The position numbers and the translations under genes were made by a program. From NCBI RefSeq assembly GCF_019059575.1, contig NW_024881571.1, forward strand, positions 744,001 to 808,000: a stretch of DNA of 64,000 nt, read 5' to 3'. How positions within the stretch are numbered: the stretch's first letter is position 1; each line of letters opens with the position of its first letter. Under the pieces are notes generated by a model that saw only the letters and a list, made by a program, of their open reading frames with translations, was not told the origin of the DNA and did no database searches. Positions 18,321-59,468 of this stretch are shown in pieces. The stretch comes from Amphibalanus amphitrite. Taxonomy: Eukaryota; Arthropoda; Thecostraca; Balanomorpha; Balanidae.

Positions 18321-19478
18321 ATAAACCGCGCCGTGCTAATGGTCTGAGTTTCGGTGTCGTGGTGGAGGGGGGGGGGCGTTTTCACCCCATTCCATCCCCG
18401 TCTAACTTGGCTCCTGGGCCACGTAGCAACACGCGGTAGGCGGCAATCGAAAGAGCGTCAAAAATAATTTCGGAAACACTTCAGTCATTTTCAGGTCAGG
18501 TCACCAGAGGTCATCAAAAGTTAATCTTTGTCTATTTCAACAATTTTCGGAACACACAACGGCTAACTCGGGTATCAGATAAAGCTACAGCGCCACGGAA
18601 AGAGCATTCGATAGCTCTATTAACGCTCTTTCGCCAGTCTGCCCTCATATTTGACCTCAGGTCAACGGTTTAGCCTCCAGAGGGCAAAAACTATAAAAAT
18701 AGCCGTTTTCGCAAAAAAAAGTTTTACGGTAATAGCTTTTGATTCAAGGGAGCCATGACATTAATTTTGTCAGCACCGTGTTTCTCTCGTCGAGACGCGT
18801 CGAATGAACTATAATTTGATCTTGAAAGATCATTTGAAAAATTTGGCCTCAGGTCAAGGTCATGACCTGACCGGGAAGAGTCATGCTGCATATCAGTCGA
18901 TCCGTATCGTCGAGCTGAACACATCTGACACCGCTCTATCACGTCTCTATCACAGGTTATAATACAAAATGCTGGTGACCTTTGATGACCTGAGATGAAC
19001 TCAGGGGCACACAGAGGTCAAAGGTGCAATTTTCCGATTCAGTGTGTCATGCTCACCTATGAGCCGATGTTTGAGAAAGAACGACATTCGTCCAAAAGAG
19101 GGGCGCATTTCAATTTTCTCCCCTTGACTTAGGTATACAGAGAGGTCGCAAAATTGACCTGACCCTAGGTCACATATATCAAAACTCCGAAATAAACGTT
19201 TTACGCATATTGGTCTCTTATCAATCGCTGAAAGTTTCAAAGTGATCGTTCAGTCGGTGTAGCTACAGCGAGCCTTTGAACATTTTCTGAGGTAAGGTCA
19301 CATGACGTGACCTGGTGACCTGACCTTGAGCGACCTGGGTCTGAAATTTTCACAATATGTGCGGAAAAGATGTATGAACAGGTGTGCTAAACACTGCTCG
19401 CCGCCGTTTTTGAGATATCCACGAAAAATCTGAAGGGGGCGTGAACCCCCCCCCCCCTCCAAGCACGGCGCGGGATAA
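18321..19478. mobile_element. TTAA-class non-autonomous element (older copy)
   Basis: The left end reads AAACCGCGCCGTGCT and the right end AGCACGGCGCGGGATAAT, inverted repeats of about 14 bases with degraded TTAA edges. G and C runs lie just inside the left and right ends. The interior has the family's AGGTCA-rich modules, and the segment at 18590-18720 matches 32160-32280 and 53800-53950 in other copies. No coding capacity. Confidence 0.65.
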
Positions 19479-19480
19479 TA

Positions 19481-19756
19481 GCCGTTTTCACGACGGGCTA
19501 TCCGGCGAATGCACCTGATTTGACCAAATCTGCACCTAATTTCTGTTACAGCAAATATCTTCATTTTATGAATTTAGTTCAGTGTTTTAATCGATGATGC
19601 TCTCTGATAATATGGCAAAGTAGGCATATCAGCAATTAGTGCAACCCTAGCTGAAAGCTGCTAAGAGGCATAATGAACCTGATTTGACCAGATCTGCACC
19701 TAATTTGTACCAGATGTGCACCAAATGTGTAACCAGATGGCCGTCGTGAAAACGGC
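19481..19756. mobile_element. 276-bp MITE with perfect 16-bp inverted ends
   Basis: Ends are GCCGTTTTCACGACGG and its exact complement, flanked by TA on both sides (19479-19480, 19757-19758). A second copy lies at 30128-30402 and diverged pieces at 34447-34735. The interior contains repeated CAAATCTGCACCTAAT-like phrases. No transposase. The TA flank suggests a Tc1/mariner-type source. Confidence 0.85.
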
Positions 19757-19924: not shown

Positions 19925-21106
19925 TATCCTTCGCCCCAGTGGGGGGGGGCATATGTTACCACCCTGTCACGTTTTTTGCGTGTGAATAAAAAACCGCGGC
20001 GCGTAGCGCCGCGCCGCTTGTGGTAGCTTTTGGTACATTAATTTTGGACAATGTGTGAAATTTTTGACCCCAGGTCATGTCAGGTCAGGTCACCAGGTCA
20101 AGTTAACTGACCAAGCCTTAAAAAAAGTTTGCAATCATGTCCAGCCTGCAGTGTTTGTCAGAAAGGTTTGAAACTTGGTGGATTGCATGCTGTTATGGGT
20201 GCCTACAATTCGTATATCTCGGATTTTTTATATCCGTGACCTAAGGTCACGTCAGTGGCATGACCTTTCCATTACAAGTCAATGGAGAAAAATGAAAATG
20301 CCTTTAGATCCGTGTGTACGCATAGGAACAGTCCAAATATTTCAGAATCACAATGATTTAGTCCACTCGTGATGACCAAGGTGTCATTTTTGCTGATAAC
20401 CTCTAGAAAGGTCATCCGAGGTCATTTGAGGCTACTAACAGTTTTTTGCCAATAACTCGGGATTGGAAAGAGATAGAACGCTGGGGATGGTCTCATTGTG
20501 TTTGTCTTGTTGAGACGCATCGACTGATATGCAACATGACCTTTTCCGGTCAGGTCATGACCTTGACCTGAGGTCAAATTTTCAAGTTGACCTTTCAAGG
20601 TCAAATTATAGTTCATTCGACGCGTCTCGGTAAGGGGAACACGATTCTGGCAATAGAAATGTCGTGGCTTTTTGTAGTCGAAAGTTATTGGCGAAAAACA
20701 CTTTTCGTAAAAACAGCTATTTTTGGAGTTTTTGCCCTCTGGAGGCTAAACCGTTGACCTGAGGTCAATATTGATAATGACCTTTTCAAAAGAAGAGTTC
20801 AAAAGCTATCGATTGTTCTATCATGCGTTTTTCTAGCTACCATAGTTTCTGAGATAGCGGCATGTTTTCTGAAAAATATAATGACAATTGGCAAATTTTG
20901 ACCTTTGATGACCTCTGGTGACCCTAATATTGCTCTAAGGTGAAAAATGACTGAAATACTTTCAAACGTACGCATTGAGAGCTATCGACTGCTTTTTACC
21001 GCGTCTTTCTAGCCCTCTTAGTTTTTGAGTTAGAGGTGGGTGGTAACATATGCCCCCCCTCACTAGGGCGAAGTTGGCCGAGACCGCCACTGGGGCGCGG
21101 GATATT
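19925..21106. mobile_element. TTAA-class non-autonomous element (older copy)
   Basis: Inverted ends CGCCCCAGTGGGGGG on the left and CACTGGGGCGCGGGATAT on the right, with degraded TTAA edges. It contains one GC hairpin (19994-20017) near the left end and many AGGTCA/TGACCT half-sites. Segment 20480-20620 matches 31925-32060 of another copy. Confidence 0.65.
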
Positions 21107-22042: not shown

Positions 22043-22098
22043 CAACATTTACCCGTCTAATTTAAGAGAGTTTAGCGTAGTGAGGAAAATCATATTGA

Positions 22099-23072
22099 TG
22101 ATTATGAGCATATTTTTAATTGACCGAATCCTCAATGTAATCTGAATAAAATGACAAATAGCAAAAATTCGGGTATATTCGATCACAGATCTTTGTCAAC
22201 CGATACCAGCAGGCGCCACAATTGTAGATGTCAAAATACTTTTTGTTCAGTACACATGCACAACAGTAGATATGTCCTCAGGGAAAAGATTTATGGTTGG
22301 TACTTCTAAAAGTCGCAGCAGTCAAACATAATATGTACAGGGAAAGCAGTCAAACATAATATGTACAGGGAAAAACCTATACACAAGATTAAAGTGCGTT
22401 TGTGCCTAAGCATATACGAATTTAAGATGAAACAATACTTGCGGATCAATTAAATGGGCAGCAAGTTACACTCTTACCCTGGACAAAGTTAGGGCACATA
22501 TAACATTTACACTGTGCGAAACAATTAAATGAGCATATTATACATAAATGAACATTATATACGTAAATGAGCATACATGAGCGTATTATCATACTATGAC
22601 TACTCATACCCTGGACAAAGTTAGGGCGCATACAGCATCTATGAAAACGATCTACACAATCACTTTTTAACGTGGTGAGCTCTTGAAAATGCTACCCTAC
22701 TTTGGAAGTAGCTGCCAGGAGGTGCTGTTATCGTTAAGAGCTGGCATCCTATCGCGGATGGTGATGGATTCAGCAATCCTCCTGTCAGCTTCATCCTTAC
22801 ATTTGCGTACGATGCGTGCTATCAGAGTCGTGTCCGTTGGGGTCAGGTCTGGGTGCTCGTGCGCGAAATGTTCACCCATTGGTGTGCCTAGTTTCTTGTT
22901 GGTGCCATCTCGTAAGTGTTCGTTATATCGCAGTCGTATTGGCCTACCGCTTTCTCCTACGTAAGTTTTGTTGCACAGACTACATTTCAATTCGTACACT
23001 ACGTTTTTCGTGTGACACTTTCCCCGCAGCCCAGCTTGACATGCGTGGCAGTGCTGTCTGCCTGAAGGACAC
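22099..23072 (-). repeat. Left arm of a 974-bp inverted repeat
   Basis: This segment is the reverse complement of 23194-24167, with no mismatch noticed in the stretches compared and identical translated peptides. The 121-bp spacer is 23073-23193. The outer part carries two copies of CCCTGGACAAAGTTAGGGC (about 22485 and 22609). Confidence 0.92.
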
Positions 23073-23095
23073 AAAAGTGCTGGTCCAAGGTCCAA
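22697..23095 (-). pseudogene. Penelope-like GIY-YIG endonuclease fragment, inverted copy
   Basis: Mirror copy of the plus-strand fragment at 23099-23569. The peptide from CPSGRQHC to LLPK is identical. The copy loses homology upstream of 23072, inside the cysteine cluster region, so it is about 120 bp shorter at the 5' side. Confidence 0.85.
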
Positions 23096-23098
23096 AAA

Positions 23099-23569
23099 GT
23101 GCTGAAAACATCAGGGTTTCCGATCCTTGCAGCATGGACAAATCAAAACACACTCAAAAGACAGCTAGTGCGGTCAGCTCTCAAAGACCCACCGTGTCCT
23201 TCAGGCAGACAGCACTGCCACGCATGTCAAGCTGGGCTGCGGGGAAAGTGTCACACGAAAAACGTAGTGTACGAATTGAAATGTAGTCTGTGCAACAAAA
23301 CTTACGTAGGAGAAAGCGGTAGGCCAATACGACTGCGATATAACGAACACTTACGAGATGGCACCAACAAGAAACTAGGCACACCAATGGGTGAACATTT
23401 CGCGCACGAGCACCCAGACCTGACCCCAACGGACACGACTCTGATAGCACGCATCGTACGCAAATGTAAGGATGAAGCTGACAGGAGGATTGCTGAATCC
23501 ATCACCATCCGCGATAGGATGCCAGCTCTTAACGATAACAGCACCTCCTGGCAGCTACTTCCAAAGTAG
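23099..23569 (+). pseudogene. Penelope-like GIY-YIG endonuclease fragment
   Basis: About 156 codons remain of a much longer retroelement polyprotein. Visible in order are a linker (NTLKRQLVRSALKDP), a cysteine/histidine cluster (CPSGRQHCHACQAG, GKCHTKN), the GIY-YIG core in the form VVYELKCSLCNKTYVGESG followed by RLRYNEHL, and a downstream EHF/HEHPD region. This order is characteristic of Penelope-like elements, whose endonuclease nicks the target for reverse transcription. The frame is uninterrupted to its TAG, but no reverse transcriptase precedes it, so it cannot be functional alone. Confidence 0.85.
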
Positions 23570-24167
23570 GGTAGCATTTTCAAGAGCTCACCACGTTAAA
23601 AAGTGATTGTGTAGATCGTTTTCATAGATGCTGTATGCGCCCTAACTTTGTCCAGGGTATGAGTAGTCATAGTATGATAATACGCTCATGTATGCTCATT
23701 TACGTATATAATGTTCATTTATGTATAATATGCTCATTTAATTGTTTCGCACAGTGTAAATGTTATATGTGCCCTAACTTTGTCCAGGGTAAGAGTGTAA
23801 CTTGCTGCCCATTTAATTGATCCGCAAGTATTGTTTCATCTTAAATTCGTATATGCTTAGGCACAAACGCACTTTAATCTTGTGTATAGGTTTTTCCCTG
23901 TACATATTATGTTTGACTGCTTTCCCTGTACATATTATGTTTGACTGCTGCGACTTTTAGAAGTACCAACCATAAATCTTTTCCCTGAGGACATATCTAC
24001 TGTTGTGCATGTGTACTGAACAAAAAGTATTTTGACATCTACAATTGTGGCGCCTGCTGGTATCGGTTGACAAAGATCTGTGATCGAATATACCCGAATT
24101 TTTGCTATTTGTCATTTTATTCAGATTACATTGAGGATTCGGTCAATTAAAAATATGCTCATAATCA
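23194..24167 (+). repeat. Right arm of a 974-bp inverted repeat
   Basis: Pairs with 22099-23072 about an axis near 23133. The near-identity of the arms implies recent origin, arm-to-arm gene conversion, or an assembly fold. It holds the plus-strand GIY-YIG reading frame. Confidence 0.92.
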
Positions 24168-24247
24168 ACATTTACCCGTCATCCAATTCCAGACAATATA
24201 TGTTCGCAGTTTTTTTGCGTCAACATGTGGGTATAGCTTATAGCTTC

Positions 24248-24573: not shown

Positions 24574-25479
24574 TTAACCCGCGAGTTGCTGGGGGGCGTT
24601 AAACGCCCCCACTTTTTTCGCCGGGCCATAGCATAAAAACGGCGCGCCGCAGGCGCGCCAAATTTTGGGTGCCTGTAGAGAATTGATTGAAGTTTATTGT
24701 GACAAAGTTTCAAAAAAATCGGTCGGAAAATTATTGAGATATCGAGGTTTTAGTGACGTCATGATTTCTGAGTTTTCGACCAAAAACGGCATATGTTCAA
24801 AAAATCATATAAAATCGCAGAATAAACATACAGACATGCCGTAAACGCCATTAGACTGCCAATACCATGATCAATCAAATGGCTATCTTCAATTATTGAT
24901 TATCGTTCCGCATTTTCCAAAATCTTGAACTGAATCTTGGCAATTTTTCGTGACCATGATACATGAATTTCTTAAATTGAACTTTTTGAGCCAAACACGT
25001 ACACATATGATAAAATGAATGTCACCATCGTGTTCTACGCTCCAAATTACCTATAAAACATGTGTCACAGGCTGCGAATATCAGTTTTGATTTTCGGGGA
25101 TATGTACCCGGTTGACCTGACCTCGACCCTGACCTATGCTTGACTGACCCCTATATGGAGCTGACACTCTTGTAGGCCTTATAAGATGGATTGTGCACCG
25201 TTTTGACAGAGTTTATGGCGAGAGGCGCCCATTGCGAAGTCCTAAAGTCCATGCTACTGAAAGCCCGATTTCAGGTGTTTGACCTGACCTTGACCCGACC
25301 TGTGACCTCAAAATTCAACTTTAAAGTACTCATCTGAAGCGTCTCGTCGCCCTCTTTCGTTTGCCGCCTCGTGCGTTTCGCTGCGCCTATTGGTTCTCGA
25401 GTTATCGGCTGGGGGCTTTTAACGCCCCCCCCCCCAGCAAACGGTGGGTGGCGAAATACCCCAGCAACTGCCGGGTTAA
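24574..25479. mobile_element. TTAA-class (piggyBac-like) non-autonomous element, 0.9 kb
   Basis: Starts TTAACCCGCGAGTTGCTGG and ends CCCCAGCAACTGCCGGGTTAA, so TTAA flanks CCC...GGG inverted ends. That pattern is the mark of piggyBac-type insertion. A GC hairpin lies at 24641-24659. AGGTCA-type half-sites cluster around 25108-25300. The copy at 36199-37126 is the same family in the opposite orientation. No transposase. Confidence 0.82.
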
Positions 25480-25792: not shown

Positions 25793-28700
25793 CCGGGTGG
25801 CCCAGAAAAAACGTTCCGAACTTTGGAGGCCTATATATAAAATACGAGTACAAATAACGAGCCAAAATTTTCATCAAGTTTGCGTCATTTCTTTGCGCAT
25901 TGGTATGCCAAAATATAACACTATACCATCATTTTCAAGCTGGCAATCTTGAGTTGAATTAAGCAAAACATTTTTGCTTTTTTGGCCGATGTCAAACGAT
26001 AGTGATGATTGGGTTAGACGTCCCATGTTATAAAAAAAGAATAAAAATAGAGCACGTGAATGAAACCAACACGTATGTTCTTATTAATATTTTTGTCTCA
26101 CTTATGTGCCAAATATTCAAATACTGAGCCAAAATGGGGCTCATGGATGTCATTCGTTTCAACACCAAATCATGTTTCGAGCAGGAGTGGCACGGTGCAT
26201 GGATTACCTACTGCTGATTACCCTCCTTTCAGTAGATCAAACAGTAAATCGACCGGATAAGGAAAACAAACTAAAGCAGACTGGCAGGGGCGTCGCCACG
26301 GATTTTTGAGTGGGGGGGTCGGGTTTCCGGTCTTCGTCTTGATGGGTAGGGGTGTTTTTAGCCACACTCCCGGTTTTTTTTCGTGTGCCCGGAGGAAAAA
26401 CTCGGCGCGCAGCGCCGCGAAAGCAGCGGTATATCTTAATGTACATCAATTTTTGCATCGTGCATAAAAATCAAGCACAGGTCACCTGAGGTCAGGTCAC
26501 AATGTCATGTCAAGTTCAGTTTTAATGCCTCTAAAAACTGCAGTCTTGTCATTCCTATAGATGATCTCCTATAAGTCTGAAATTTGGAGTAATGAATGGG
26601 AGTATAAGTGCAAACAGTTCATGAATCTGGGATTTTACATCTGAGAAGCGAAGTCAGGTCAAATAGGTGTGTGACCTCACCAATCATGATAAGATATGGG
26701 AAAAAGTACGATGCCCTCTGCTTTGAAAGAATATGCTAAAAACGCTAGATACTTTTGTAGCCATGGCACCTTGTTCATTTTAGAGATAAGGTTCAGCTAA
26801 TGACCAGTGGTGACTGAAATGGTCAGTCATTAGGTCATCAAAGGTCTCTAACACATTTTCGACAACAACTTTTGATGGAGACGTTGTAGAGCGATGATAG
26901 CACCTGGAGTGTGTTCAGCTCAGTAACACAGATCGATCTATATGCAGCAGGTTCTTTTTTGGTCAGGTCATGACCTTTACCTCAGAGGCTGCCTTACCAA
27001 GAGGCAGCATCCTATGAGCATCCGCTCCCTATGCCTCTTTCCTATCTACTATGGTGAGCATGGTGAGCACCTAATGTCAAGTTTTCTATTGAAGTTTTTA
27101 AGTTCAAATTGTAAGCCATGCGACGGGTTTCGACGAAACAAAAACGATGGTGATAACATGAATATCATACACATTCACTGAACCATATGTTGTTACAGAA
27201 CAAATGTTTCGGCAAAATCCGTCCGTTTAGCTGTTTGGACTCTATGGTACACAAGCCATAGACCCGAAGTCATATCTGAGGCGAAGTTGGCGAAAGAGTT
27301 TTAAAAAGCTATCGAATACGCTTACTGTGTTGCCGTAGCTCTTATTCGTATTTTGCGGGTCGCTAAGGTAAAACGTTTACCAACGTAACGCATAAGGCAT
27401 GCTTTCGGCCCCTGATCGAGATAGAGTTTCGCGAAAGAGCAAAAATGCTGCCCGTGATGAGAGAAAGCCGATGATGCCCAATTTCAAGGTCTTGGCCGGG
27501 TCATCTTAGGTCAACGCCCAAAAGTACATAGGAAAAATCTGGCCGCCTGCTAGAACTTAGTGAGCCGTAGCTGTTATCGGGGTCCCGAATACGAGTTCGA
27601 TGTTAGTCTTGAACAAAGATGATGACTCCATGCATTTTGGGTAGATCGTGTCGGGTCAGGTCAGGTCGACCAGCAGGCTTCCTGCCGGCCATCTAGAGTG
27701 GGTGACTGACAACCACCAACGATAGCTTCGTAACATGTTACCTAACCATCATTTATCAAAACTACTTCAAACGGTTCAAACGGGCGCTAAACTCGAAATC
27801 AGCCCCAAAAACCACACTTGTATGTGGATGCAAATAAAACTCAAAAAAGTTGACCAAGGTCATCCATATTCGAATCAGGGCCAATTTTTTAGAATAGGTG
27901 TAAAATTCATTAACCCGAGGTCACTGGAAGTTTCGTTGCAATATACTCCTTTTTGCGCGTCTTATTAGGAAAGCCCCAGAGGGATCCACCATCTGACCCC
28001 TCTTCCCCTATGCAGGCAGGTCCGAGGGTAGCAGGGCTGAGGCTAGCCAGGTACCTCGTAGTTACTGATACGTCATCCGACGAATCGACTGCAACCATTA
28101 TTTTGACAATCAGACGAACGCTTGGATCAGTTTTGACGCGCTCGCTCATTTGAGGGATAAAAAGGGACTAAAATCACATTGTCATGCTGATGTTCTAACC
28201 CACAGCTTATTGACCTATAAGCAATAGGGACTAGGGAGCTCTTGAAGCGATTCTGAATCTGACGTTGTATTTGTTGATGTTGCTGACGCCAGCTTCCCTG
28301 ACATGATAGCTAAAAAAAGCATACTCAGCATCGCCAAAAGTGGGGGGGGGGGTCGACCCCCCCGGTTCTGACGAGTGGGGGGGTCGCGACCCCCCCGACC
28401 CCCCCTTCGGCGACGCCCCTGCAGACTGGTTCCTGTGCCAGAAGACCACAGAATAGCTTATGAAAAACAACATTGCCAGCAGATGACAAAAAAAAACTGG
28501 TTGAAAAGCTACCTTTTCCCAGGAATGTCAGCCAGGAAAGCATTTGAGCCACAAGATGGTTAGAAAACTGGAAACTTCTTCCGATGCCGCTGGCACAGAG
28601 CCATCGTGGTTGTCTGAGGGAATGTGTCATCCTGAGACCCGAACCATCAATGAGACTAGCTGCCAGTAGAAGTCATGGCTCTGGGCCGCGGTGCCGCATG

Positions 28701-28942: not shown

Positions 28943-29955
28943 TTAACCCGCGCACCGACGGGGGGGGGGGGGCGGATATCCACCCTCCCTGAGGTTTTTC
29001 GCGGATAGCGGGAAAAACCGCGGCGCATAGCGCCGCGAAATTTGGTACGACTATTCTCTGATCAATTTTACACATGGTGTGCAAGTTTGAACCTCCTAAC
29101 TTTTAAGGTCAGGTCACCAGGTCACTTTGAATGACCCAACCTCAAGTCACTTTTTTGCAACTTTGTCACCGTGCCAGAGCTACAGTAGATGTCGGAGGCC
29201 TTTGAAAGTCGCAGGATGTTATTAGGTCATTAGTAGCTACAATTTGTATATCTCGGAATTTTGATGTCGGTGACCTAAGGTCAGGTCAATTTCGCGACCT
29301 CCCCATTATAAGTCAATGGGGGAAAAATCAACTCCCTGTTTTTACCACTAAAACGGGTCGGAATGGCCCCATATACCATACATGACTTCATATACGATCA
29401 ACCTTCAATACCTTGAGGTCTGTTTTGCTGTTGGGCAGCTGTAAAGTCATGTGACGTCATCAAAGGTCACCAAAGGTTTTTTGCCAATAACTCGGTACAG
29501 GAACAAGCTACAGCCGCGTGGATGGTCTCATTGTGTTCAGCTCGTCAAGACGCATCGAATGATATACATGATGACCTCGAGGTCACGTGACCTGAGGTCA
29601 ACCTTTGGCCTTGACCTTTCGAGGTCAACATATACATCATTCGATGCGGATTGACGAGAGGATCACGATGCTGCCCTTGGTTTGTTCCTATCTTGATTAA
29701 TTCGAAAGTTATTCGAGAAAAACTCTCTCCATATCTAGCGCCGCCATTTTGACTTTTTCGATCCCTGTGACGTCATCTTTGACCTGACCTGAAAATGGCC
29801 TTGGTAAAGATTGTAGACCTTGTCCGTGCGTATCCGATGCCGTTTACCGCTTGTCGCTATCTTGCTTCGTTCTCGAGATCTCAGGGGGGGGGGCGGTCAT
29901 CTGCCCCCCCCGTCGGTACGAAGTTGGCGCAGACCCCCGTCTGTGCGCGGGTTAA
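28943..29955. mobile_element. TTAA-class non-autonomous element, 1.0 kb
   Basis: TTAACCCGCGCACCGACGG at the left and CCGTCTGTGCGCGGGTTAA at the right. It abuts the end of the mariner-like element. A GC hairpin lies at 29019-29037. A central foldback pairs 29551-29578 with 29621-29648 (25 of 28 by eye). The loop and stem are packed with TGACCT/AGGTCA. Segment 29451-29654 has a close relative at 51288-51509 in the opposite orientation. Confidence 0.85.
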
Positions 29956-30402: not shown

Positions 30403-30599
30403 TTATGTCTACCAGACGTTTAACAGTTTGGTAATCGTCTAGACCTTGGTCTAGACGTTTAACAAATCAGACGACATCTGATAATTTTCTCTCTTTGCGC
30501 GTGAAGCAATGGTAAACACTGTCTACGGTGCGGGACAATATATTTTAATCGCTCTAGCATGTCTTTATTAGAAATTGCCTATTAGCGGAAAATGCCCGG

Positions 30600-31093
30600 T
30601 ACATTAGTGACTGAAGATGGCCTCACGGACATAGCAAGGGGTCACGGGTGTCATTATCCGGTTTAGTATGTCACTTTGACTTGTAGTTCGGTATTTGAGA
30701 GTGTTTAGAATGACGTCCTTCCAAAAGAAGCTTCTTTCAATTTTCTCCCATTGACTTATAATGGCGAATGGAGAAGTCGCAACACTGGCCTGACCTTAGG
30801 TCACCGACATCGAATTTCTGAAACATACCTATAATTTGCGCATAATGCTGCTCTCGTCAATTGATGAAAGTTTTAAAGTGATCCGTCCCTGTGTGTAGAT
30901 ATGGTAGGCATTATAACCTTTCTATGAATGAGGTGAGGTCACTATGCAGTTTTCACAGCATGTGTGAAAAAGATCCATGATAAATTGTGACAAAAACGGT
31001 GACGCTCCGCACCTCGTTTTTTATAGAAATTTGCGAAAGACTTGGGTGGGGGGTTCTCTGTTCAAACAAAACCCTCAGCCGGGTGCGGGTTAA
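30600..31093. mobile_element. TTAA-class element, right half only
   Basis: Ends GCCGGGTGCGGGTTAA. The sequence from about 30640 follows the right half of the copy at 53534-54730 (shared CCCATTGACTTATAATGG phrase and AGGTCA sites). The left half is missing; the left boundary is approximate. Confidence 0.6.
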
Positions 31094-31357: not shown

Positions 31358-32508
31358 TTAACCCGCGCCCTGCTGGGGGGTGTTTGAACACCCCCCTTGT
31401 GGTTTTTCGCGAATATCTCAAAAACGGCGGCGCTCCGCGCCGCCGTTTTTGGTACACCTTATCATACATAAATTCTACACATGTTGTGAAAATTTCAGAC
31501 CAAGGTCATTCAAGGTCAGGTCACCAGGTCACTTGAAGTGACCTCACCTCATAAAAAGTTTCAATGTCTGTCATAGCTACACCGAGGGACCGATCGCTTT
31601 GAAACTTTCAGCGATTGCTAAGAGCAATAGCACGTACAAAATTTATATCTCAGAATTTTGATATCGATGACCTAAGGTCAGGTCAATTTTGCGACCTCCC
31701 CATTGTCAATGGGAGAAAATTGAAATGCGCCTCTTTTGCACGAAAGACATTATAAACACTCCCAAACACTTAATTACAAGTGGTTTAGACACACTGAACA
31801 TGAAAATGGTGTCCGTGACCCCTGTTTATGCCCTGAGGTCATCTTAGGTCACGAATGGTATCTAACAGTTTTTCGCAAATAACTTTTGATAGAGGCATGC
31901 TAGAGCGATGAAAACGCATTAGATGTGTTCAGCTCGACGATACGGATCGACTGATATGCAAAATGACCCTTTCAGGCCAGGTCATGACCTTGACCTGAGG
32001 TCAAATTTTCAAGTTGACCTTTCAAGGTCAAGTTATAGTTCATTCGATGCGTCTTGACGAGAGAAACACGATGTCGGTATAAGTAACCTCGTGCAAGGCT
32101 TGGGTCAAAAGTTATTGCATAAAAACTGTTTCCGAAAAAAAATCGGCTATTTTTGCAGTTTTTGCCCCCTGCAGGCAAAACCGTTGACGTTAGGTCAAAT
32201 CTGAGAGAATTACTCAGAAAGGGCGGTAATAGGGCTATCGAATGCGCTTTTCTGCGGCGCTGTAGCTCTATTGGTTCCCGAGTTATGCGTTGGCATCTTG
32301 GAAATTGTCGACATTTGACCTGGAAATCGGCGAAATTTTGCCTTCAATGACCTCTGGTGACCTGACCTTTGATCTGACCAAACAAATTGACCGAAGTGAT
32401 TTCGTCATTATTTTTGGCGCTCTTTCGAACGCCGCCTTCCGTGTTCAGACACCCCCCCCCCCTTAGCAGGGCGTGGAAATCCAGGACCCCCAGCCGGGCG
32501 CGGGTTAA
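31358..32508. mobile_element. TTAA-class non-autonomous element, 1.15 kb, upstream of paralog 1
   Basis: Starts TTAACCCGCGCCCTGCTGG and ends CAGCCGGGCGCGGGTTAA. A hairpin of 14-bp stem lies at 31420-31450. By hand it holds about twenty AGGTCA/TGACCT half-sites, including two TCAAGGTCA sites (about 31512 and 32023) that match the extended Ftz-F1/ERR form. It is the same family as 53534-54730 in reverse. It ends only 104 bp before the start codon of the gene at 32613. Confidence 0.86.
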
Positions 32509-32612
32509 GCAAGCTTCCTTTCACAGACTCGCAGGCGCATGTATGTGGAGCCAGCAGACAAGGAGCGAATGGCACATACCAATCGAAACTAAATCCCAGG
32601 CGGCGACTGTCA

Positions 32613-34440
32613 ATGGAGGTGGCGGCGACCGTCCAGAGGTGGACACTCGTCCTGCTGCTGCTGGTGTTACTGGCGGTGCTCTTAGTCAGCGCCGAGCTGC
32701 CAACTGACGGAGAATTGTCGGTGTGCAGCACGCCCTGCTGCACGGTGGAGCCCAGCTGCTCCGTCGCCCTGCACGTCGCCTGCAGCTGCAATGACGAGGA
32801 ACGGGTAAGCCATGCGACTTATTTTGTTAGCTTAATGGCCTGCCTCACCAAATATACTTTATATTCGAAATGCTCGTTTGAGTATTTATTGAGTGTATGT
32901 AGTACGGTAATTGTTTACTGTTTTATTCTAAATATGCGAACATTTTTCCTTTCAGATCGTTCTCAGGAAAGCGGACATACCTCCAACGGTGAAAACAATT
33001 CACATTTCCAACGCCGAAAGAGTAACCATCTATAATGACGCCCTCACCAGTCTGCCGCTCCTCACTGACTTCAGCCTCCACGGTATCGTCAATGTAACCA
33101 TAGAAAACGGAGGAATGAATATGCAGAGCAGCTGCAACCTATCCATGGTGCGCATGGAAGACATTGAAAACGTCCGAGTAAAAAGCTGGGCGGTCACTGG
33201 AGCCTGGGACCGAGAACTAAACTTTGAGCTGGCCAAAATAAACCAACTTCAAATTGAGACAGACGCCTTTCACTACGACTCAGAAACACCGGGCCTCAAA
33301 TTGATGCTGCAGGACATCAATATGCTGGTCCTGGATTCGAAGGCATTCTCAGCGCCCATTGCCGAAATGGCGCTGAATAATGTTCGCATGGAAGAGTGCC
33401 ATGACCAGAGCTTTGGAGGCCGGACTGCCAACACAATGTTCAACAACGTATCCATCGCTAATGCCCAAACTAGATGTGTCTTCGGGTCTGATAGCCGGGC
33501 CACGCTGTCCGTACACTCCAGCAGGATCGATGTTCTAAGCAGCGAGGCGTTCTCTGGACAGCTGAGGAAGCTGTACATCAGCAGCAGCGACTTCTTGACA
33601 ATGCAAGACATTGGCGTGAATCTGCAACTTGTAGAACTAGAAGTCACTAATCTGTTTGTCCAGCGACTGAATTCTAAAGCACTGTCAGTTGTGGCCGACG
33701 ATTCTATTCGCATCCATAAAATGCACGTGGAGTCGCTAAAAAAGAACGCTCTCGCAGGTCTGCTTGTCAAGCCAACACCGTCAGGCTTCTGTCCCCCCGT
33801 GAATATCCACCAGATGGAGGTCACCGAGGCCGAGCTGGGCTCGCTGACTTTCTCTGAGTGTGCCGATCTGGCCGTCACAGACCTGATCGTGCACTCGATG
33901 CCGACAGGTCTCTGTCCCACGGAGAGCCTGACACGCGCGCTGTGCGCCGGTCCCGACAGCGGGCCGCTCAGTCTGACACAGGAGGCGGTCTTCTGGCAGC
34001 TGTACGAGCGCAGTCTCTGTGACCAGGACGACCGCCTGCCCTTTCCAGAGCTGGCCGACAGACACCGCTGCGACCCCGGGCTCATCTACAGCTCTCCGGC
34101 TGGCGAGACAACGGTCCCGGTGCCGTCAGAAAAGGTCACCGCTCGGGCCGTGGTTCCCGGAATCGCGAGAGATCAAGCTCCTGTGGAAGGAAAAGGCGCT
34201 CTTTTTCCATCCGGGGCATCGTTTCCGTCGAAATCGACTCCCGTTGGGGGCGGCGGCGAGACGGACCAGCAGCATTCCCCGGTGCTGTACCCAGCGCTGG
34301 GCGCAGTGATGTCGGTCCTGTTGGTCGTGGCGCTGGTGGCACTGCTCGTCCGTCTCCGTCGTCACCACCGCGTGAGCGAAACAGACGAGCGGTCAGAGGC
34401 GATTGTGATACTAAGCACGGAAGCGCTGGGCTTATGGTGA
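32613..34440 (+). CDS. Type I membrane protein with cysteine cap and irregular LRR/solenoid-like ectodomain (paralog 1)
   Basis: Two exons: 32613-32804 and 32956-34440, with a 151-bp phase-0 intron (CGG|GTAAGC ... TTTCAG|ATC). The 558-residue product has a signal peptide (1 to about 27, leucine-rich core), a cysteine cluster at about 28-62 (CSTPCC...CSC), then about 300 residues with periodic hydrophobic strands and AFS/ALS phrases resembling a degenerate leucine-rich or beta-helical solenoid, a second cysteine region (about 330-430), a Pro/Ser/Gly linker and a membrane helix at about 507-529. The cytoplasmic tail is only about 29 residues. The family is not recognised; a cell-surface recognition or adhesion role is inference. 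The stop codon sits at the edge of MITE-like sequence (34447 on), so the tail may have been cut short relative to the paralog. The start was chosen because it gives the signal peptide. Confidence 0.82.
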
Positions 34441-36198: not shown

Positions 36199-37126
36199 TT
36201 AACCCGGCAGTTGCTGGGGTATTTCGCCACCCACCGTTTGCTGGGGGGGGGGGGGGCGTTAAACGCCCCCAGCCGATAACTCGAGAACCAATAGGCGCAG
36301 CGAAACGCACGAGGCGGCAAACGAAAGAACGCGACGAGACGCTTCAGATGAGTACTTTAAAGTTGAATTTTGAGGTCACAGGTTGGGTCAAGGTCAGGTC
36401 AAACACCTGAAATCGGGCTTTCAGTAGCATGGACTTCAGGACTTCGCAATGGGCGCCTCTCGTCATAAACTCTGTCAAAACGGTGCACAATCCATCATAT
36501 AAGGCCTACAAGAGTGTCAGCTCCATGTAGGGGTCAGTCAAGCATAGGTCAGGGTCAAGGTCAGGTCAACCGGGTAGGCACATATCTCCGAAAATTAAAA
36601 CTGATATTCGCAGCCTGTGACACATGTTTTATGGGTAATTTGGGGCGTAGAACACGATGGTGACATTCATTTTATCATAAGTGTACGTGTTTGGCTCAAA
36701 AAGCTAAATTTAAGAAATGCATGTATCATGGTCGTGAAGTAGTCACGAGAAATTGCCGAGATTCAGTTCAAGATTTTGGAAAATGCGGAACGATAATCAA
36801 TAATCGAAGATAGCCATTTAATTGTTCATGGTATTGGCAGTCTAATGGCGTTTACGGCATGCCTTTATGTCTATACTGTGATTTTATATGATTTTTTGAA
36901 CATATGCCGTTTTTGGTCGAAAACTCAGAAATCATGACGTCACTAAAACCTTGATATCTCAAAAATTTTCCGACCGATTTTTTTTTTGAAACTTTGTCAC
37001 AATAAACTTCAATCAATTCCCTACAGGTGCCCAAAATTTGGCGCGCCTGCGGCGCGCCGTTTTTATGCTATGGTCCGGCGAAAAAAGTGGGGGCGTTTAA
37101 CGCCCCCCCAGCAACTCGCGGGTTAA
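36199..37126. mobile_element. TTAA-class non-autonomous element, 0.93 kb, upstream of paralog 2
   Basis: Starts TTAACCCGGCAGTTGCTGG and ends CCCCAGCAACTCGCGGGTTAA. It is the reverse-orientation sibling of 24574-25479, matching through most of its length. A GC hairpin lies at 37040-37058. It lies about 370 bp before the start codon at 37498. Confidence 0.86.
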
Positions 37127-37231
37127 GTGAGTGCCTATGCCGCTTATGGTGGGATATATAAACGTTAAACCAAATTAGGACGATTTATTTCGAGCTAATT
37201 AGAAGGCAAAGAATTTGTATGTATTTTCTGC

Positions 37232-37372
37232 AAAATAAATATAGAAATAAATAATTAAGTAAATAAATATATGATTAAATAAATAAATAAATAAGTAAAT
37301 ATATTATTAAATAAATAAATAAATGAATAAGCAAATCAATGAATAAACAAGTGATAAATACATAATAAAAAT
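37232..37372. repeat. (AAAT)n-type microsatellite
   Basis: Imperfect AAAT/AAATA repeats over about 140 bp, in the upstream region of paralog 2. Confidence 0.85.
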
Positions 37373-37497
37373 GACACTTTGTTAAGCATCTTATGACCCA
37401 AAAGCAGAACTCATTTTATTTTCAGGAAATCTGGCTCTGAAGCTAGCAGGCCAAAGCGGTGCAGGACTGATCGCCGGTGGTTCCACGGCTGATCACC

Positions 37498-39635
37498 ATG
37501 GCACCAGGCCGGCATGGCCCGGAGCTGCCGTCACCTGCACTGCTACTTCTGACCGTGGCAGTAGTCAGTATGATGACGTCATCAGTGCTCAGCGCCGAGC
37601 TGCCAACTGACGGAGAATTGTCGGTGTGCAACACGCCCTGCTGCACGGTGGAGCCCAGCTGCTCCTCCGCCCTGCACGTCGTCTGCAGCTGCCACAACAA
37701 GGAGCGGGTATGTACAGCATGAACAAATGCACCATCAAGGAACCCATACCTTTAACGTTCAGTAAAATGTATATGCATATGAGTGTATGTGTAATATGGA
37801 GCAGCAACTCAAGATAACACAACTAAGGTCTTCTTACTTCTTTCTATAGTGCGGCGCTATAGAAAGGATTGCCGCTAAATGGTCCGTGCCACGTAGGTAT
37901 TCTCTCCCCCAGGGGATCTGTGGTGAGCGAGTATTTGACGTGTCCTAAATCTAGCATGAGCCCAGGATGAAACTGGACGGTAGTAGGTATTCCCTCGAAA
38001 GACAACATATAGGTACACATGGAGAGGGATTAAGGTCGAAGAAGGTGACGTCCGATTTAAATTAAAATAGTTACATATAAGCAATTGAAACATAGCGAGG
38101 GCTGTGCATATGTGGGAATAGGTGTGCATGCTTTTTATGCGTAGGTTGTGATGTGCGTCGTTTGTATCAATCTCTATCTCTTTTGTTCACTTTTCCAGAT
38201 CTCTCTGCGTAAAGGAGATTTGCCGGCATCAACCGAGACCATTAAACTTGAAAGAGTGGACCAGCTGACAGTGTATCAAGGCGCTTTGCTGGATTTGACA
38301 TCGCTGACGAACTTAGAGCTGCACGGGATCGGTACACTGACCACACTCGCGAATGCGATCGCACCTCGAAAGAACTCCCTCCTTCACGTTGTAGACATCA
38401 CCTACGTCAACAATATCGAGATCGGCAGACGGGCCTTTTCAGGTTTCTGGACGGAACAAGCTACCCTCAATATACGACATATTGAGAAGATGCAAATAAA
38501 GGAGAACGCCTTCTGGTTTAAGCAACCATTCCATGCCCCTCACCTTGGGATAAAGAATGTCGATGTTCTACATGCAGCGTCCAATGCATTCAATATGCCC
38601 CAGGGAACATTGGATATTGAAGGAATAAACATGCAGCGCTGCGAACAGGGTACCTTCGGCGAGCTGTCCAACATTGACATGGACAGAGTGAACATCACCG
38701 AACTCGGAGAGGGCTGCGTCAACGGCAGTGGCAGCCTCCACCGGCTGTCGGTGTCCAACAGCCGTCTGGGAGTGATTGGGCAGCGCGGCATCTGCGGGAA
38801 CATCGACACCGTCGCCATCAGTAACACCAGCGTCTCTGTCCTCGAATCAAACGGCCTGCAGCTGCGGACCACCAAACTGGGAATACAGAGCTCCCACTTT
38901 AACTCCGTGATGACAAAAGGACTAAACGTCCTAGCTGATGAAGTCTTTTTAAGAGAAATGGCCGTAAACACTCTTCACTGGCGCGGTCTGAAGTCATTGA
39001 AAGTATCAGAAGAGGGCAAAGGCAGAACTTCTTTTCGAATAATGAACCTCACAGTGGAGCACGCTGCCAACGGCTCGCTGGCCCTTGACGTTGACCCCGG
39101 CGTTCTGCAGCTAGTGCGCCTGTCGGTCGGCGTTCCGGAGCCGCCCGTGTGTCCCGTGGATAGGTGGGTCCGACAGCTGACCGACACCAGAGAGACGGCG
39201 CCGCTAGGATTAACCGAGCAGCGCATGCAGGCCCTCCTGCAGCGCGACTGGCTCTGCAGGGAGTCCAGGAGCACGACGCCCACTGCCACCGGTGCCGAGG
39301 ACGGCGGAGGTAGCAGTGTGGAACGGGAGGACCCGATCGCCTCGCCAGTCACCGAGAGAACTGATGACTTCAGCATGGACTACCGCCTGACCATTGTAGT
39401 CATTGTGGCGTTAGTGTTCGTCTTCATCATAGTCGCCCTCATTGCCATCCTCATTGCACGCTCTAAACAATCATCGGACGAAGCGAAAAGCAACAGAAGA
39501 GCGATCGAGTCCAGAGATGGCACCCCTGAACCCTTCATGGACCAGTCACTTTCCAGTGTTGTCACTGACTCGGTGGTGCGTCGCAAGCGAGGCAGGCGAG
39601 GCGTGGCAGGGAGACGAGGTGTCAGGGTGAACTGA
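37498..39635 (+). CDS. Type I membrane protein with cysteine cap and irregular LRR/solenoid-like ectodomain (paralog 2)
   Basis: Exons 37498-37707 and 38199-39635, with a 491-bp phase-0 intron at the same position as in paralog 1 (GAGCGG|GTATGT ... TTTTCCAG|ATC). The start ATG is in a good context (ATCACCATGG). The product is 548 residues: signal peptide to about residue 35, cysteine cap (CNTPCC...CSC), ectodomain with repeated hydrophobic strands and phrases such as NLELHGI, RRAFSGF, FGELSNI, a membrane helix at about 466-490 and a 58-residue cytoplasmic tail ending in a strongly basic stretch (RRKRGRRG). The upstream acceptor-like TTTTATTTTCAG at 37413-37424 suggests a separate 5' untranslated exon. 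The ectodomain is only distantly like paralog 1, yet exon 1 is nearly identical at DNA level. Function unknown; surface receptor or adhesion is inference. Confidence 0.84.
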
Positions 39636-40609: not shown

Positions 40610-41760
40610 AGCCAGGGGTATTGTGGTGAAGTTTCAATGGCCCTCAAAAGACCTCAAAGGGCCCACAGATGGGTTCACCGGGTCCTCAGATGGTCTCGAA
40701 GGGCCCTCGGTTAGCGCCAAATGGCCCTCATCTGGTGTCAAAGGGCCCTCAGATGGCCAAATGAAGGGCCACAAGATGGCCTCAAAGGGCCCTCAGATGG
40801 GTTCAAAGGGCTCTCAGCCAACGTTAAACCTACCTCAGAAGACCTTAAAGGGCGTCAAAGGGCCCTAAACCTGCGTCAGAGGGCCCTGAGCTCGCGTCAA
40901 ACGACCCTCCGAAGGCCTTAAAGAGTCCTTAGCTTGTGTCAGAGGGCCCCCAGCTGGTGTCAGTGAGCACTCCTCAGCTGGCGCCAAAAGTCCATCTGAA
41001 GGCCTCAAACGGTCGTCAGCTGGAGTACAACGGTCCTCAGATGCCGTCACGCGGCCCTCAAAAGCCTCAAGGAGCCCTTATAAGGTCTCAAAGGGCCCTC
41101 ATTTGGCCTCAAAAGGCCCTCCGCTAGCGTTAACCGGACTTCAGAAGGCCTTAAAGGGCCCTTATCTGGTGTCAGAGGGCCCCAAGCTAGTGTCAGAGGG
41201 CCCCCCGGCCCTCAGTTGGCGCAAAATGGCCATCAGAAGGCCTCAAACGGTCCGTAACTGGAGTCCAACCGCAACGGTCCTCAGGTGGCGTCAAGCGGCC
41301 CTCAAAAAGCCTCAAAGGCCGCTTAGAAGGCAGCCAAGGGCCCTCATATGACCCCAAAGGGTCCTCTGCTGGCGTCAAACGGACCTCAGAAGGTCTCAAA
41401 GGGCGTCAAAGGGCCCTGAGCTCGTGTCAAATATAAAAGCGCCCTTAGCTGGTGTCAGGAGGCCCCCAGTTGGTGTCAGCGTGCCCTCAGCTGGTGTCAG
41501 AGAGCCCTCAGTTGGCATCTACTGGCCATCAGAAGGCCCCAAACGGTCCTCAGATGGCGTCCAACGGTCCTCAGCTGACGTTAAGAGGCCCTCAAAAAGG
41601 CCTCAAAGACCCCTCGGCTGCTGAAGAGGCCCTTAGCCTCAAAGGAAACTCAAGAGACGTTAAACGGCCCTAAAAAGGCTTGAAAGGGCCCTCTGCTGGT
41701 GGCAAAGGGCTCGCATATGACATCAATAACAGCTTTGTCAAAAACGGACCTGAGAGACCT
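40610..41760. repeat. Degenerate GGGCCCTCA minisatellite, about 1.15 kb
   Basis: About 1.15 kb built from variants of a roughly 15-base half-unit alternating GGCCTCAAAGGGCCC and TCAGATGGCGTCAAA-like phrases, usually spaced near 30 bases. Each unit is diverged, so the array is old. Open frames with KGPSDG-type repeats come from the repeat itself and are not called as genes. Confidence 0.88.
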
Positions 41761-41769
41761 TGCCGGTCC

Positions 41770-41950
41770 CTGGTTATAAAGGACTCCTGTCTCTTGCAGT
41801 AACCTGAGTGGCCCACGTTTACTGAGGGGCCCCTGGTTATTGAAGGAGTCCCTGGTTACTGGAAGGACCCCTGGTTATCAGAAGGTTCCCTGGTCACCTG
41901 GTGGGTCCCTGATCAATTGAGACCTCCCGATCATCTGAGCGCCCCCTGAT
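41770..41950. repeat. Second degenerate array, CCCTGGTTA units
   Basis: Adjacent to the GGGCCC array but with a different unit, CCCTGGTTAnnn(G)AAGGACC, in about seven diverged copies, for example near 41768, 41830, 41850, 41868 and 41889. Confidence 0.7.
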
Positions 41951-41954
41951 TGCC

Positions 41955-43692: not shown

Positions 43693-47196
<3,504 letters not shown>

Positions 47197-50991: not shown

Positions 50992-51998
50992 TTAACCCTA
51001 TTCCTGGCGGGCTCCGCCGGGACAAGAAACTGGCGGGGGGGGCCGATTCGGCCCCCCCTGAGATCTCGAGAACGAAGCAAGATAGCGACAAGCGGTAAAC
51101 GGCATCGGATACGCACGGCCAAGATCTACAATTTTTACTAAGGTCATTTTCAGGTCAGGTCAAAGATGACGTCACAGGGGTCGAAAAAGTCAAAATGGCG
51201 GCGCTAGATATGGAGAGAGTTTTTCTCGAATAACTTTCGAATTAGTCAAGATAGGAACAAACTAAGGGCATCATCGTGATCCTCTCGTCAATCCGCATCG
51301 AATGATATATATGTTGACCTCGAAAGGTCAAGGTCAAAGGTTGACCTCAGGTCACGTGACCTCGAGGTCATCATGTATATCATTCGATGCGTCTTGACGA
51401 CTTGACGAGCTGAACACAATGAGACCATCCACGCGTCTGTATCTTGTTCCTGTACGGAGTTATTGGCCAAAAACCTTTGGTGACCTTTGATGACGTCACA
51501 TGACCTCACAGCTGCCCAACAGCAAAACAGACCTCAAGGTAGTGAAGGTTGATCGTATATGAAGTCATGTATGGTATATGGGGCCATTCCGACCCGTTTT
51601 AGTGGTAAAAACAGGGAGTTGATTTTTCCCCCATTGACTTATAATGGGGAGGTCGCGAAATTGACCTGACCTTAGGTCACCGATATCAAAATTCCGAGAT
51701 AAACAAATTGCACATACTGGTACCCTAACTAAACCCTGAAGAGAAGAAATTGATCGGTCAAAAACTCTAGCTCTGGCGTGATTGCAAATTTTTCTGAGGA
51801 AGGGTCACCAATCCGCCTCTGGTGACCTGACCTGAGGTCAGATCAACTCAAAATTTTCAGACATGTTGCGTAGAAGCCTTTTAGGAAAAGTCAGAAAATT
51901 TGAGCTTCCTAGCTCAACGCGTTTGGGAGAAATAACCAAAAAACCTCAGGGGGGGGGGGGCTCCTGAGGCCCCCCCCCCCCGCCAGGAATAGGGTTAA
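50992..51998. mobile_element. TTAA-class non-autonomous element, 1.0 kb
   Basis: TTAACCCTATTCCTGGCGGG at the left and the complement CCGCCAGGAATAGGGTTAA at the right, a long and nearly perfect inverted end with TTAA on both sides. The central foldback around 51294-51390 matches that of 28943-29955 in reverse. Rich in TGACCT/AGGTCA. Confidence 0.88.
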
Positions 51999-53533: not shown

Positions 53534-54730
53534 TTAACCCGCGCCCTGCTGGGGGTCCTGGATTTCCACGCCCTGCTGGGGGGGGGGGGTGTTTGAACAC
53601 CCCCCCCTTGTAACTCGGCTCCTGGGCCACGTAGCGATACGCGGAAGGCGGCGTTCGAAAGAGCGTAAAAAATAATGACGAAATCACTTCGGTCAATTTT
53701 TTGGTCAGGTCAAAGGTCAGGTCACCAGAGGTCATTGAAGGCAAAATTTCGCCGATTTCCAGGTCGAATGTCGAAAATTTCCAAGAAGCCAACGCATAAC
53801 TCGGGAACCAATAGAGCTACAGCGCCGCGGAAAAGCGCATTCGATAGCCCTATTAACGCCCTTTCTGAGTAATTCTCTCAGATTTGACCTAACGTCAACG
53901 GTTTTGCCTGCAGGGGGCAAAAACTGCAAAAATAGCCGATTTTTTCGAAAACAGTTTTTCTGCAATAACTTTTGACCCAAGCCTTGTACGAGCTTACTTT
54001 TACCGGCATCGTGTTCCTCTCGTCAAGACGCATCGAATGAACTATAACTTGACCTTGAAAGGTCAACTTGAAAATTTGACGTCAGGTCAAGGTCATGACC
54101 TGACCGGGAAGGGTCATGTTGCATATCAGTCGATCCGTATCGTCGAGCTGAACACATCTAAGGCGTTTTCATCGCTCTAGCATGCCTCTATCAAAAGTTA
54201 TTTGCGAAAAACTGTTAGATACCATTCGTGACCTAAGATGACCTCAGGGCATAAACAGGGGTCACGGACACCATTTTCAAGCTCAGTGTGTCTAAACCAC
54301 TTGTAATTCGGTGTTTGGGAGTGTTTATAATGTCTTTCATCCAAAAGCGGCGCATTTCAATTTTCTCCCATTGACTTATAATGGGGAGGTCGCAAAATTG
54401 ACCTGACCTTAGGTCATCGATATCAAAATTCTGAGATACACATTTTGTACATGCTATTGCTCTTAGCAATCGCTGAAAGTTTCAAAGCGATCGGTTACTC
54501 GGTGTAGCTATGACAGACATTGAAAGTTTTTATGAGGTGAGGTCACTTCAAGTAACCTGGTGACCTGACCTTGAATGACCTTGGTCTGAAATTTTCACAA
54601 CATGTGTAGAATTGATGTATGATAAGGTGTACCAAAAACGGCGGCGCTCCGCGCCGCCGTTTTTGAGATATTCGCGAAAAACCACAAGGGGGGGTGTTCA
54701 AACACCCCCCGCCAGCAGGGCGCGGGTTAA
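53534..54730. mobile_element. TTAA-class non-autonomous element, 1.2 kb
   Basis: TTAACCCGCGCCCTGCTGG at the left, CCAGCAGGGCGCGGGTTAA at the right. It is the best-preserved copy of the family that includes 31358-32508 (in reverse) and the partial copies at 24248 and 30600. A GC hairpin with A/T-extended stem lies at 54634-54664. AGGTCA half-sites occur throughout, for example 53704-53735, 54045-54100 and 54390-54420. Confidence 0.88.
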
Positions 54731-59434: not shown

Positions 59435-59468
59435 CTCTAGAGAGCAAGTTCCAGTAAGTTCCATCAAA

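Follow-up and report, generated by a model that had tools for sequence, protein, structure and literature searches.

Why a short mobile element should be packed with AGGTCA, and whether such elements scatter nuclear-receptor binding clusters through a genome, are the questions raised by positions 31358-32508 (E1) of the window, the whole 64-kb stretch of Amphibalanus amphitrite DNA analysed here. A preliminary description had counted about twenty AGGTCA/TGACCT half-sites in E1. We found 21, versus a mean of 0.51 and a maximum of 3 in 500 dinucleotide shuffles, and AGGTCA was the commonest hexamer within the element. The similar density described for the copies at 18321, 19925, 28943, 50992 and 53534 was also recovered (16-21 half-sites each; shuffle means of 0.52-0.62, maxima of 3-6), and neither E1 nor any of these five copies had the density of shuffled sequence. 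Over the whole window, 187 half-sites were present (20 shuffles: mean 30.3, maximum 38). Direct repeats, the gap-0 form AGGTCATGACCT (at 31979), TGACCT-G-AGGTCA (at 31991) and two occurrences of TCAAGGTCA on the + strand were all found in E1 as described, with one additional TGACCTTGA at 31985; AGGTCA-CG-TGACCT, which had been placed in 31358-32508, was absent there, and the copies that contain it are those at 28943 and 50992. The earlier observation was correct but understated. The spacing of about 165 bp between clusters of half-sites had been missed.

The ends of E1 matched 31358 and 32508 exactly (TTAACCCGCGCCC...GGGCGCGGGTTAA), and the terminal inverted repeat (TIR) of this MITE reads CCCGCGCCC[T/G]GCTGGGGG. 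The elements E3, E4, E5 and E6 were about 63-74% identical to E1 (Table 1). E1 ends about 105 bp upstream of a candidate ATG at 32613, and positions 32508-32615 and 37126-37700 hold a pair of genes that resemble each other (92.6% over 122 bp), each with a comb MITE upstream.

Table 1. Elements of the window and half-site clusters of E1.
Feature	Positions	Strand	Description
E1	31358..32508	+	complete non-autonomous TTAA-flanked MITE, piggyBac-like; six half-site clusters
E1 left TTAA + TIR	31358..31379	+	TTAACCCGCGCCCTGCTGGGGG; 22-nt arm, 95% complementary
E1 right TIR + TTAA	32487..32508	-	22-nt arm, 95% complementary
E1 cluster 1	31503..31544	.	5 sites, ++++-; conserved block 31511-31536
E1 cluster 2	31668..31685	.	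-++, TGACCT-A-AGGTCAGGTCA; conserved block
E1 cluster 3	31836..31851	+	two sites, ++
E1 cluster 4	31979..32030	.	+--+-+; palindromic centre of the element
E1 cluster 5	32192..32197	+	single site in E1; TGACCT partner in copies 18321 and 19925
E1 cluster 6	32316..32368	-	four sites, ----
E2	53534..54730	-	E1 subfamily, ~92% identical to E1; 19 half-sites
E3	18321..19481	-	diverged relative, comb as in E1; 17 half-sites
E4	19925..21076	+	diverged relative, comb as in E1; 21 half-sites
E5	28943..29955	+	diverged relative; 16 half-sites
E6	50992..51998	-	diverged, E5 subfamily; 18 half-sites counted to 51960
F1	24574..25479	+	another TTAA/CCCGCG subfamily; two clusters, 169 bp apart
F2	36199..37126	-	second member of the F1 subfamily (93.6% to F1); its clusters too are 169 bp apart
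Truncated relative	26349..26985	+	clusters at 26490, 26666, 26834, 26970
Truncated relative	30543..31093	-	adjoins E1

Other features of the window included a 135-bp satellite array (58107-64000; orientation switch near 59446-59469), each unit of which holds CCGCTAGAGGGCAGC, which we take to resemble the CTCF core motif; a near-perfect inverted repeat (22096-24170) with 977-bp arms separated by 121 bp, whose short open frame, presumably GIY-YIG/Penelope-like, gave no Pfam match; a gene (44075-46087, - strand) for a serine protease that combines PAN, LDL-receptor class A and trypsin domains; and about 1.2 kb of degenerate 21-bp tandem repeats (GGCCCTCAGATGGCCTCAAAG) at 40636-41894. No structured RNA was matched in the window by Rfam at gathering scores.

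Half-sites were unevenly distributed, E1 exhibiting six clusters about 165-175 bp apart. Inter-cluster gaps below 300 bp in the window (n = 44) averaged 165 bp (SD 23), and distances between pairs of half-sites showed maxima at multiples of about 165 bp, separated by near-empty valleys. This comb-like spacing was also kept in the diverged relatives of E1. It was looked for in 120 kb of random DNA from 12 other contigs, i.e. eight blind 10-kb stretches, picked by coordinate before their letters were seen, and four held-out ones. AGGTCA was the second commonest hexamer in the blind stretches (144 versus about 39 expected) and ranked ninth in the held-out ones; pair counts on and off the spacing were 150 and 12.5 in the blind stretches, with additional maxima at about 345 and 520 and increasing counts toward 690, and 69 and 5.5 in the held-out stretches. 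Across all 12 stretches, edge gaps below 260 bp between multi-site clusters (n = 23) had a median of 147 bp, with a centre spacing of 174 bp. When no size limit was applied, 18 of the 22 edge gaps in the first 80 kb measured 112-206 bp, the remainder ranging from 332 to 2,005 bp; stretches between multi-site clusters covered 4.2% of these 80 kb. With sites collapsed to clusters, AGGTCA ranked first of 1,421 hexamers for periodicity in the 120 kb (19; others 0.15, SD 2.1), ranks 2 to 6 were all held by words overlapping AGGTCA, and the best non-overlapping word, CGGCAG, reached 8 versus 19. The elements found in the random stretches were related to those of the window.

The arrangement recurred throughout the genome (807,550,619 bases, 2,644 contigs). 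AGGTCA-N150-180-AGGTCA pairs numbered 575,351 in the whole 807.6 Mb and AGGTCA-N70-100-AGGTCA pairs 66,633, whereas the reversed-word control gave 6,733 and 8,929, respectively; among the matches listed, many N150-180 pairs belonged to other element families or tandem-like arrays, beyond the E1 subfamily. A genome search gave 5,483 first-look candidates, of which 40 were scored. Thirty loci were fetched, corresponding to 29 distinct places because the flanks of L001 and L002 are identical on two contigs; all 30 held 20-22 half-sites and 27 had TTAA at both ends. The TIR pattern TTAACCCGCGCCC[T/G]GCTGGGGG occurred 8,626 times (4,281 + 4,345; reversed control, 0), and most of the 100 places listed formed inverted pairs about 1.2 kb apart. 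Identical or near-identical flanks were found at two places in several cases (C74 and C227 of genome G000, L047/L048, L054/L055), which indicates that duplicates (of haplotype, assembly or segmental origin) are present and that the genome counts are inflated. A dense, microsatellite-like AGGTCA array, different from the MITE combs, was observed on contig C1 (1237935-1238515), as was another tandem-like array (41924-42281). Each of two exact patterns matched a single viral contig, and no comb was present in either.

The half-sites were more conserved than the DNA around them. In an alignment of six copies, identity inside and outside the hexamers was 0.94 and 0.60 for E1 and E4, and 0.88 and 0.59 for E1 and E5, and none of the 1,104 and 976 circular shifts, respectively, equalled the observed difference. 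Hexamer positions of distant pairs were 77-95% identical, versus 54-77% outside, and for every one of the 26 distant comparisons just 0 to 7 of about 960-1,145 circular shifts matched the observation. The four close comparisons revealed no significant difference (438/1,147, 205/1,147, 73/993 and 91/993 shifts). Because the alignment programme may favour repeated words, the closer pair formed by E3 and the consensus is of importance, and it differed at 8.1% of half-site positions versus 23.0% elsewhere. Between subfamilies, half-site divergence was 2.4-3.5 times lower than that of the remainder.

Young copies were also compared. In the first sample (the 28 best-scoring copies compared with E1, plus E2), non-CpG differences affected 5 of 3,567 half-site positions and 279 of 22,090 others, a 9-fold depletion that is possibly inflated because copies were ranked by score; singletons numbered 5 versus 150 and shared differences 0 versus 51. 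Some flanks in this sample overlapped in part (L012/L027, L013/L023, L015/L028 and L023/L027; 302-975 bp). A second sample was fetched with a hexamer-free 95-bp query and 12 of its 15 loci were kept, L045/L046 (E1 and its duplicate) and L052 (the same place as L010) being dropped; half-sites differed at 6 of 1,259 positions versus 112 of 7,010 in the remainder (3.3-fold). Further duplicates were present, as L047 and L048 shared flanks, as did L054 and L055, and the L012 flank was partly common to the latter two. For the nine distinct copies (without L048, L054 and L055), the counts were 6/984 versus 91/5,443 (about 2.7-fold; Poisson 0.003), comprising 6 versus 78 single-copy differences and 0 versus 11 shared ones (123 and 759 bp). 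Private differences were also depleted about 2-fold, so that selection acting in the lineage that transposes and constraint after landing are not cleanly separated. The low mutation of the first 80 bp in the first sample was not repeated at the 24 + 24 TIR bases of the second (8/494). Young pairs picked by position were mixed: differences at half-sites were depleted in E4/L036 (2/130 versus 68/900) and F1/F2 (0/34 versus 32/769) but not in E5/E6 (3/71 versus 15/490) or E2/consensus (2/123 versus 14/954). The constraint signal is strongest and cleanest between subfamilies, and the odds of the readings given below rest on that comparison.

Descent of the spacing was addressed by profile comparison of the seven intervals. 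Unit 3 was homologous to reversed unit 4, and unit 5 to unit 6 (best E-values of 7e-12 and 2e-13), which means that part of the spacing of about 165 bp was inherited through unit duplication; units 1 and 2 matched no other unit. Since the five runner-up periodic words in random DNA all overlap AGGTCA, the remainder of the unit has decayed while the half-sites were kept. On this evidence the comb arose partly by unit duplication, and the periodic word outlived the remainder of the unit.

Between clusters, a modest A/T rhythm of 9.4-10.8 bp, a band set following a first look at periods, reached a ratio of 1.52, compared with 1.00 ± 0.11 in shuffled sequence (0/200), 1.03 ± 0.13 in AT-matched genome DNA (0/300) and 1.09 ± 0.14 in unmatched background, where 1.3% of sets reached 1.52; the elements are related, hence the segments entering these statistics are non-independent. 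With random loci only, some of them reused, the ratio was 1.51 versus 1.00 ± 0.16 (2/300). The rhythm was weak in single elements (for E5, matched by 32.5% of shuffles), and G/C showed no 10-bp rhythm between clusters. As a sign of nucleosome positioning, the A/T rhythm is suggestive.

We then considered which protein might read the clusters. GGGTCA, a familiar variant within the RGGTCA degeneracy of receptor half-sites, was the top one-mismatch neighbour of AGGTCA in clusters (32; next 14) and kept that rank when the count was confined to random DNA (120 kb; 18; next 6). AGTTCA was weakly favoured (9, versus 3 each for AGATCA and AGCTCA; in random DNA, 2 versus 1 and 1). The clusters fit the RGKTCA-type degeneracy of nuclear-receptor half-site arrays by GGGTCA, and weakly by AGTTCA. 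The EcR/USP element is an IR1, Ftz-F1/ERR sites carry YCA 5' of AGGTCA, and HR3/ROR sites carry WAWNT 5' of RGGTCA. In 178 kb, IR1 was rare (4 among 527 RGGTCA sites) and WAWNT occurred 3 times only; YCA preceded 37 of 392 AGGTCA sites, above a uniform expectation, partly owing to GGTCAAGGTCA. No fixed 5' extension of AGGTCA was seen. The commonest pair was the overlapping direct repeat AGGTCAGGTCA (57 occurrences), a spacing for which we know of no receptor dimer; its sites overlap, so two receptors could hardly occupy it simultaneously. Other pairs were DR4 (36), DR9 (24), TGACCT-N-AGGTCA (ER1; 26), IR6 (13) and IR11 (16), and spacings within clusters fell on a 5-bp lattice, i.e. half a helical turn, with DR gaps of -1, 4 and 9 (e.g. 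31513-31523). The genome gave 77 exon-level zf-C4 profile matches from 121 scored candidates, which looks like an ordinary set; a receptor DNA-binding domain carried by a transposon was rejected, as zf-C4 matches with equal scores came in groups of three or so at most and no family was amplified. A CRE-like word, TGACGTCA, was observed in phase with the comb at 28943-29955, 50992-51998 and random loci (25 in 138 kb versus about 2 expected); of its 20 occurrences in random DNA (120 kb), just 2 lay inside cluster territory.

Judged by this grammar, a receptor tolerant of spacing and orientation would fit best, EcR/USP, HR3 and Ftz-F1 not being singled out. That mobile elements scatter receptor clusters, as the preliminary description had proposed, is plausible at the sequence level: the elements carry TIRs and TTAA ends and have placed constrained half-site clusters genome-wide, but the site grammar does not support the three readers that had been named.

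As regards the transposon class, the TTAA flanks, which probably represent piggyBac-type target duplications, and the short TIRs beginning with 5'-CCC fit piggyBac. A Kolobok origin was rejected, given that 5'-RR...YY-3' termini are required and those of the MITE read 5'-CCCGCG...CGCGGG. The genome held 116 scored piggyBac transposase matches (PF13843), many with open frames. A 604-aa family showed TTAACCCATTAGTGCCC... when its two ends were compared, and 569-aa and 601-aa families had one candidate end each (GGGCACTAATGGGTTAA and GGGCACTGGGGGGTTAA); AGGTCA was absent from all of these on the element side, and none of the three autonomous end stretches examined matched the TIR of the MITE. At L060 (1-368 and 453-801), a piggyBac with a 604-aa open frame nearby starts some 85 bp away from the TTAA terminus of another apparent comb element.

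The sequence shows three things: the comb itself, the fact that it recurs throughout the genome, and half-sites that are constrained when subfamilies are compared. The reading that we consider quite possible, though somewhat short of probable, is that the clusters lie in the linkers of positioned nucleosomes, are read by a spacing-tolerant nuclear receptor and are kept because this aids the spread of the element. E1 and its kin are non-autonomous, piggyBac-like MITEs with five or six RGGTCA clusters in both orientations, one nucleosome repeat (about 165-175 bp) apart, and the DNA of about 140-147 bp separating cluster edges would wrap nucleosomes. A host receptor, RXR/COUP-TF/TR4-like rather than EcR/USP or Ftz-F1, would bind the clusters as linkers, and each copy would in this way stay accessible as a phased array. 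Where the comb is intact, copies would be mobilised or kept open more frequently, and every insertion would bring a ready-made receptor platform to its neighbourhood. Unit homology, AGGTCAGGTCA on the 5-bp lattice, the mixed young pairs and the weak rhythm within single elements count against this explanation. The broader claim that a transposon superfamily has chromatin structure written into its DNA, each copy being a phased array of about five nucleosomes with a receptor docking cluster per linker, is more doubtful.

The same comb could be a fossil: an ancestral unit of about 165 bp, containing an array of pentamers of the (GGTCA)n type, would have undergone duplication and inversion, and the pattern would persist, functionless, by descent and slippage. 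The homology of units 3/4 and 5/6, the 5-bp lattice, the tandem-like AGGTCA arrays on C1 and the kinship of random-stretch elements with those of the window all agree with such an origin. Units 1 and 2, however, match no other unit, mixed orientations such as the 26 TGACCT-N-AGGTCA are not derivable from a simple pentamer repeat, and the half-sites have outlasted the rest of the unit in the periodicity ranking and are 2.4-3.5 times less diverged between subfamilies; we regard the fossil as rather unlikely. Constraint between subfamilies would also be expected if the clusters bound the element's own transposase or another transposon protein, the likeness to receptor sites being coincidental. 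Differences shared by young copies do spare the half-sites (0 versus 51, and 0 versus 11, the latter too few alone), many of the 116 piggyBac matches in the genome have open frames, and the outer clusters point mainly inward from both ends, with a + majority in the first third and a - majority in the last third of five out of five elements. Clusters nevertheless run through the middle of the element at a one-nucleosome spacing needless for transposase binding, and GGGTCA is the preferred variant; the three autonomous piggyBacs whose short ends were examined have other termini without AGGTCA, and no matching autonomous element was found among them. A transposase is, on balance, an unlikely reader.

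It is a good deal less likely that the host reads the clusters in order to counter the element or to shape its chromosomes (through a silencing protein, a dispersed centromere-like role or insulation). Orphan receptors have been reported to sit on variant repeats of the TCAGGG type in the telomeres of ALT cells, where, going by one title, they recruit a silencing factor, and AGGTCA is the second and ninth commonest hexamer in the two random samples. A silencing target would yet be expected to be lost between successive subfamilies, whereas the half-sites were kept, and these data do not tie the comb to centromeres or telomeres.

Several known systems resemble the comb in part. In Caenorhabditis, the CERP2/CELE2 MITEs carry repeated motifs recognised by the host factor HIM-17, together with a TT periodicity of 10 bp linked to the positioning of nucleosomes, and they are the source of roughly one third of germline-specific promoters (PMC9757741). 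Their motifs are other than AGGTCA, the factor is a THAP protein, and an m1-m2 pair lies in the inverted repeats, in contrast to the five or six clusters at nucleosome spacing in the comb. Primate Alu elements likewise spread AGGTCA-type sites genome-wide, some of which bind RAR in vivo; these are mainly DR2 and less often DR4, arisen largely by CpG deamination (PMC1785376), whereas the comb MITE carries about 20 half-sites per copy, periodic and constrained between subfamilies. With the resident piggyBac bearing an open frame, the MITE shares TTAA at both ends and 5'-CCC...GGG-3' termini, but its TIR is unlike the autonomous ends compared and it lacks a transposase of its own. Kolobok shares the TTAA target duplication and differs in its 5'-RR...YY-3' termini (PMC9587614), versus 5'-CC...GG-3' in the MITE. 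ALT telomeres are also reported to carry repeated receptor half-sites within repetitive DNA, as tandem repeats in human cells, unlike dispersed transposons with nucleosome-spaced clusters. AGGTCA-rich repeats of bivalve genomes are another likeness, of value as a lead only. TGACCT appeared in none of the papers listed for that likeness. In titles and abstract openings of the open-access literature, no half-site comb in a MITE was found.

It is already known that transposons spread single factor sites; the novelty lies in a comb of nucleosome length that is constrained from one subfamily to the next. The arrangement, with clusters at nucleosome spacing and in both orientations and with conservation between subfamilies, has the look of selection. 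Its confirmation would open to test the idea that mobile elements evolve chromatin arrays encoded in DNA in order to remain accessible, with thousands of natural replicates varying in receptor-site number, spacing and phase. Combs across this 800-Mb genome would, if the chromatin reading is true, give a mobile element a leading part in organising where receptors bind and how nucleosomes are phased, and the recurring comb may show mobile DNA organising chromatin and gene control.
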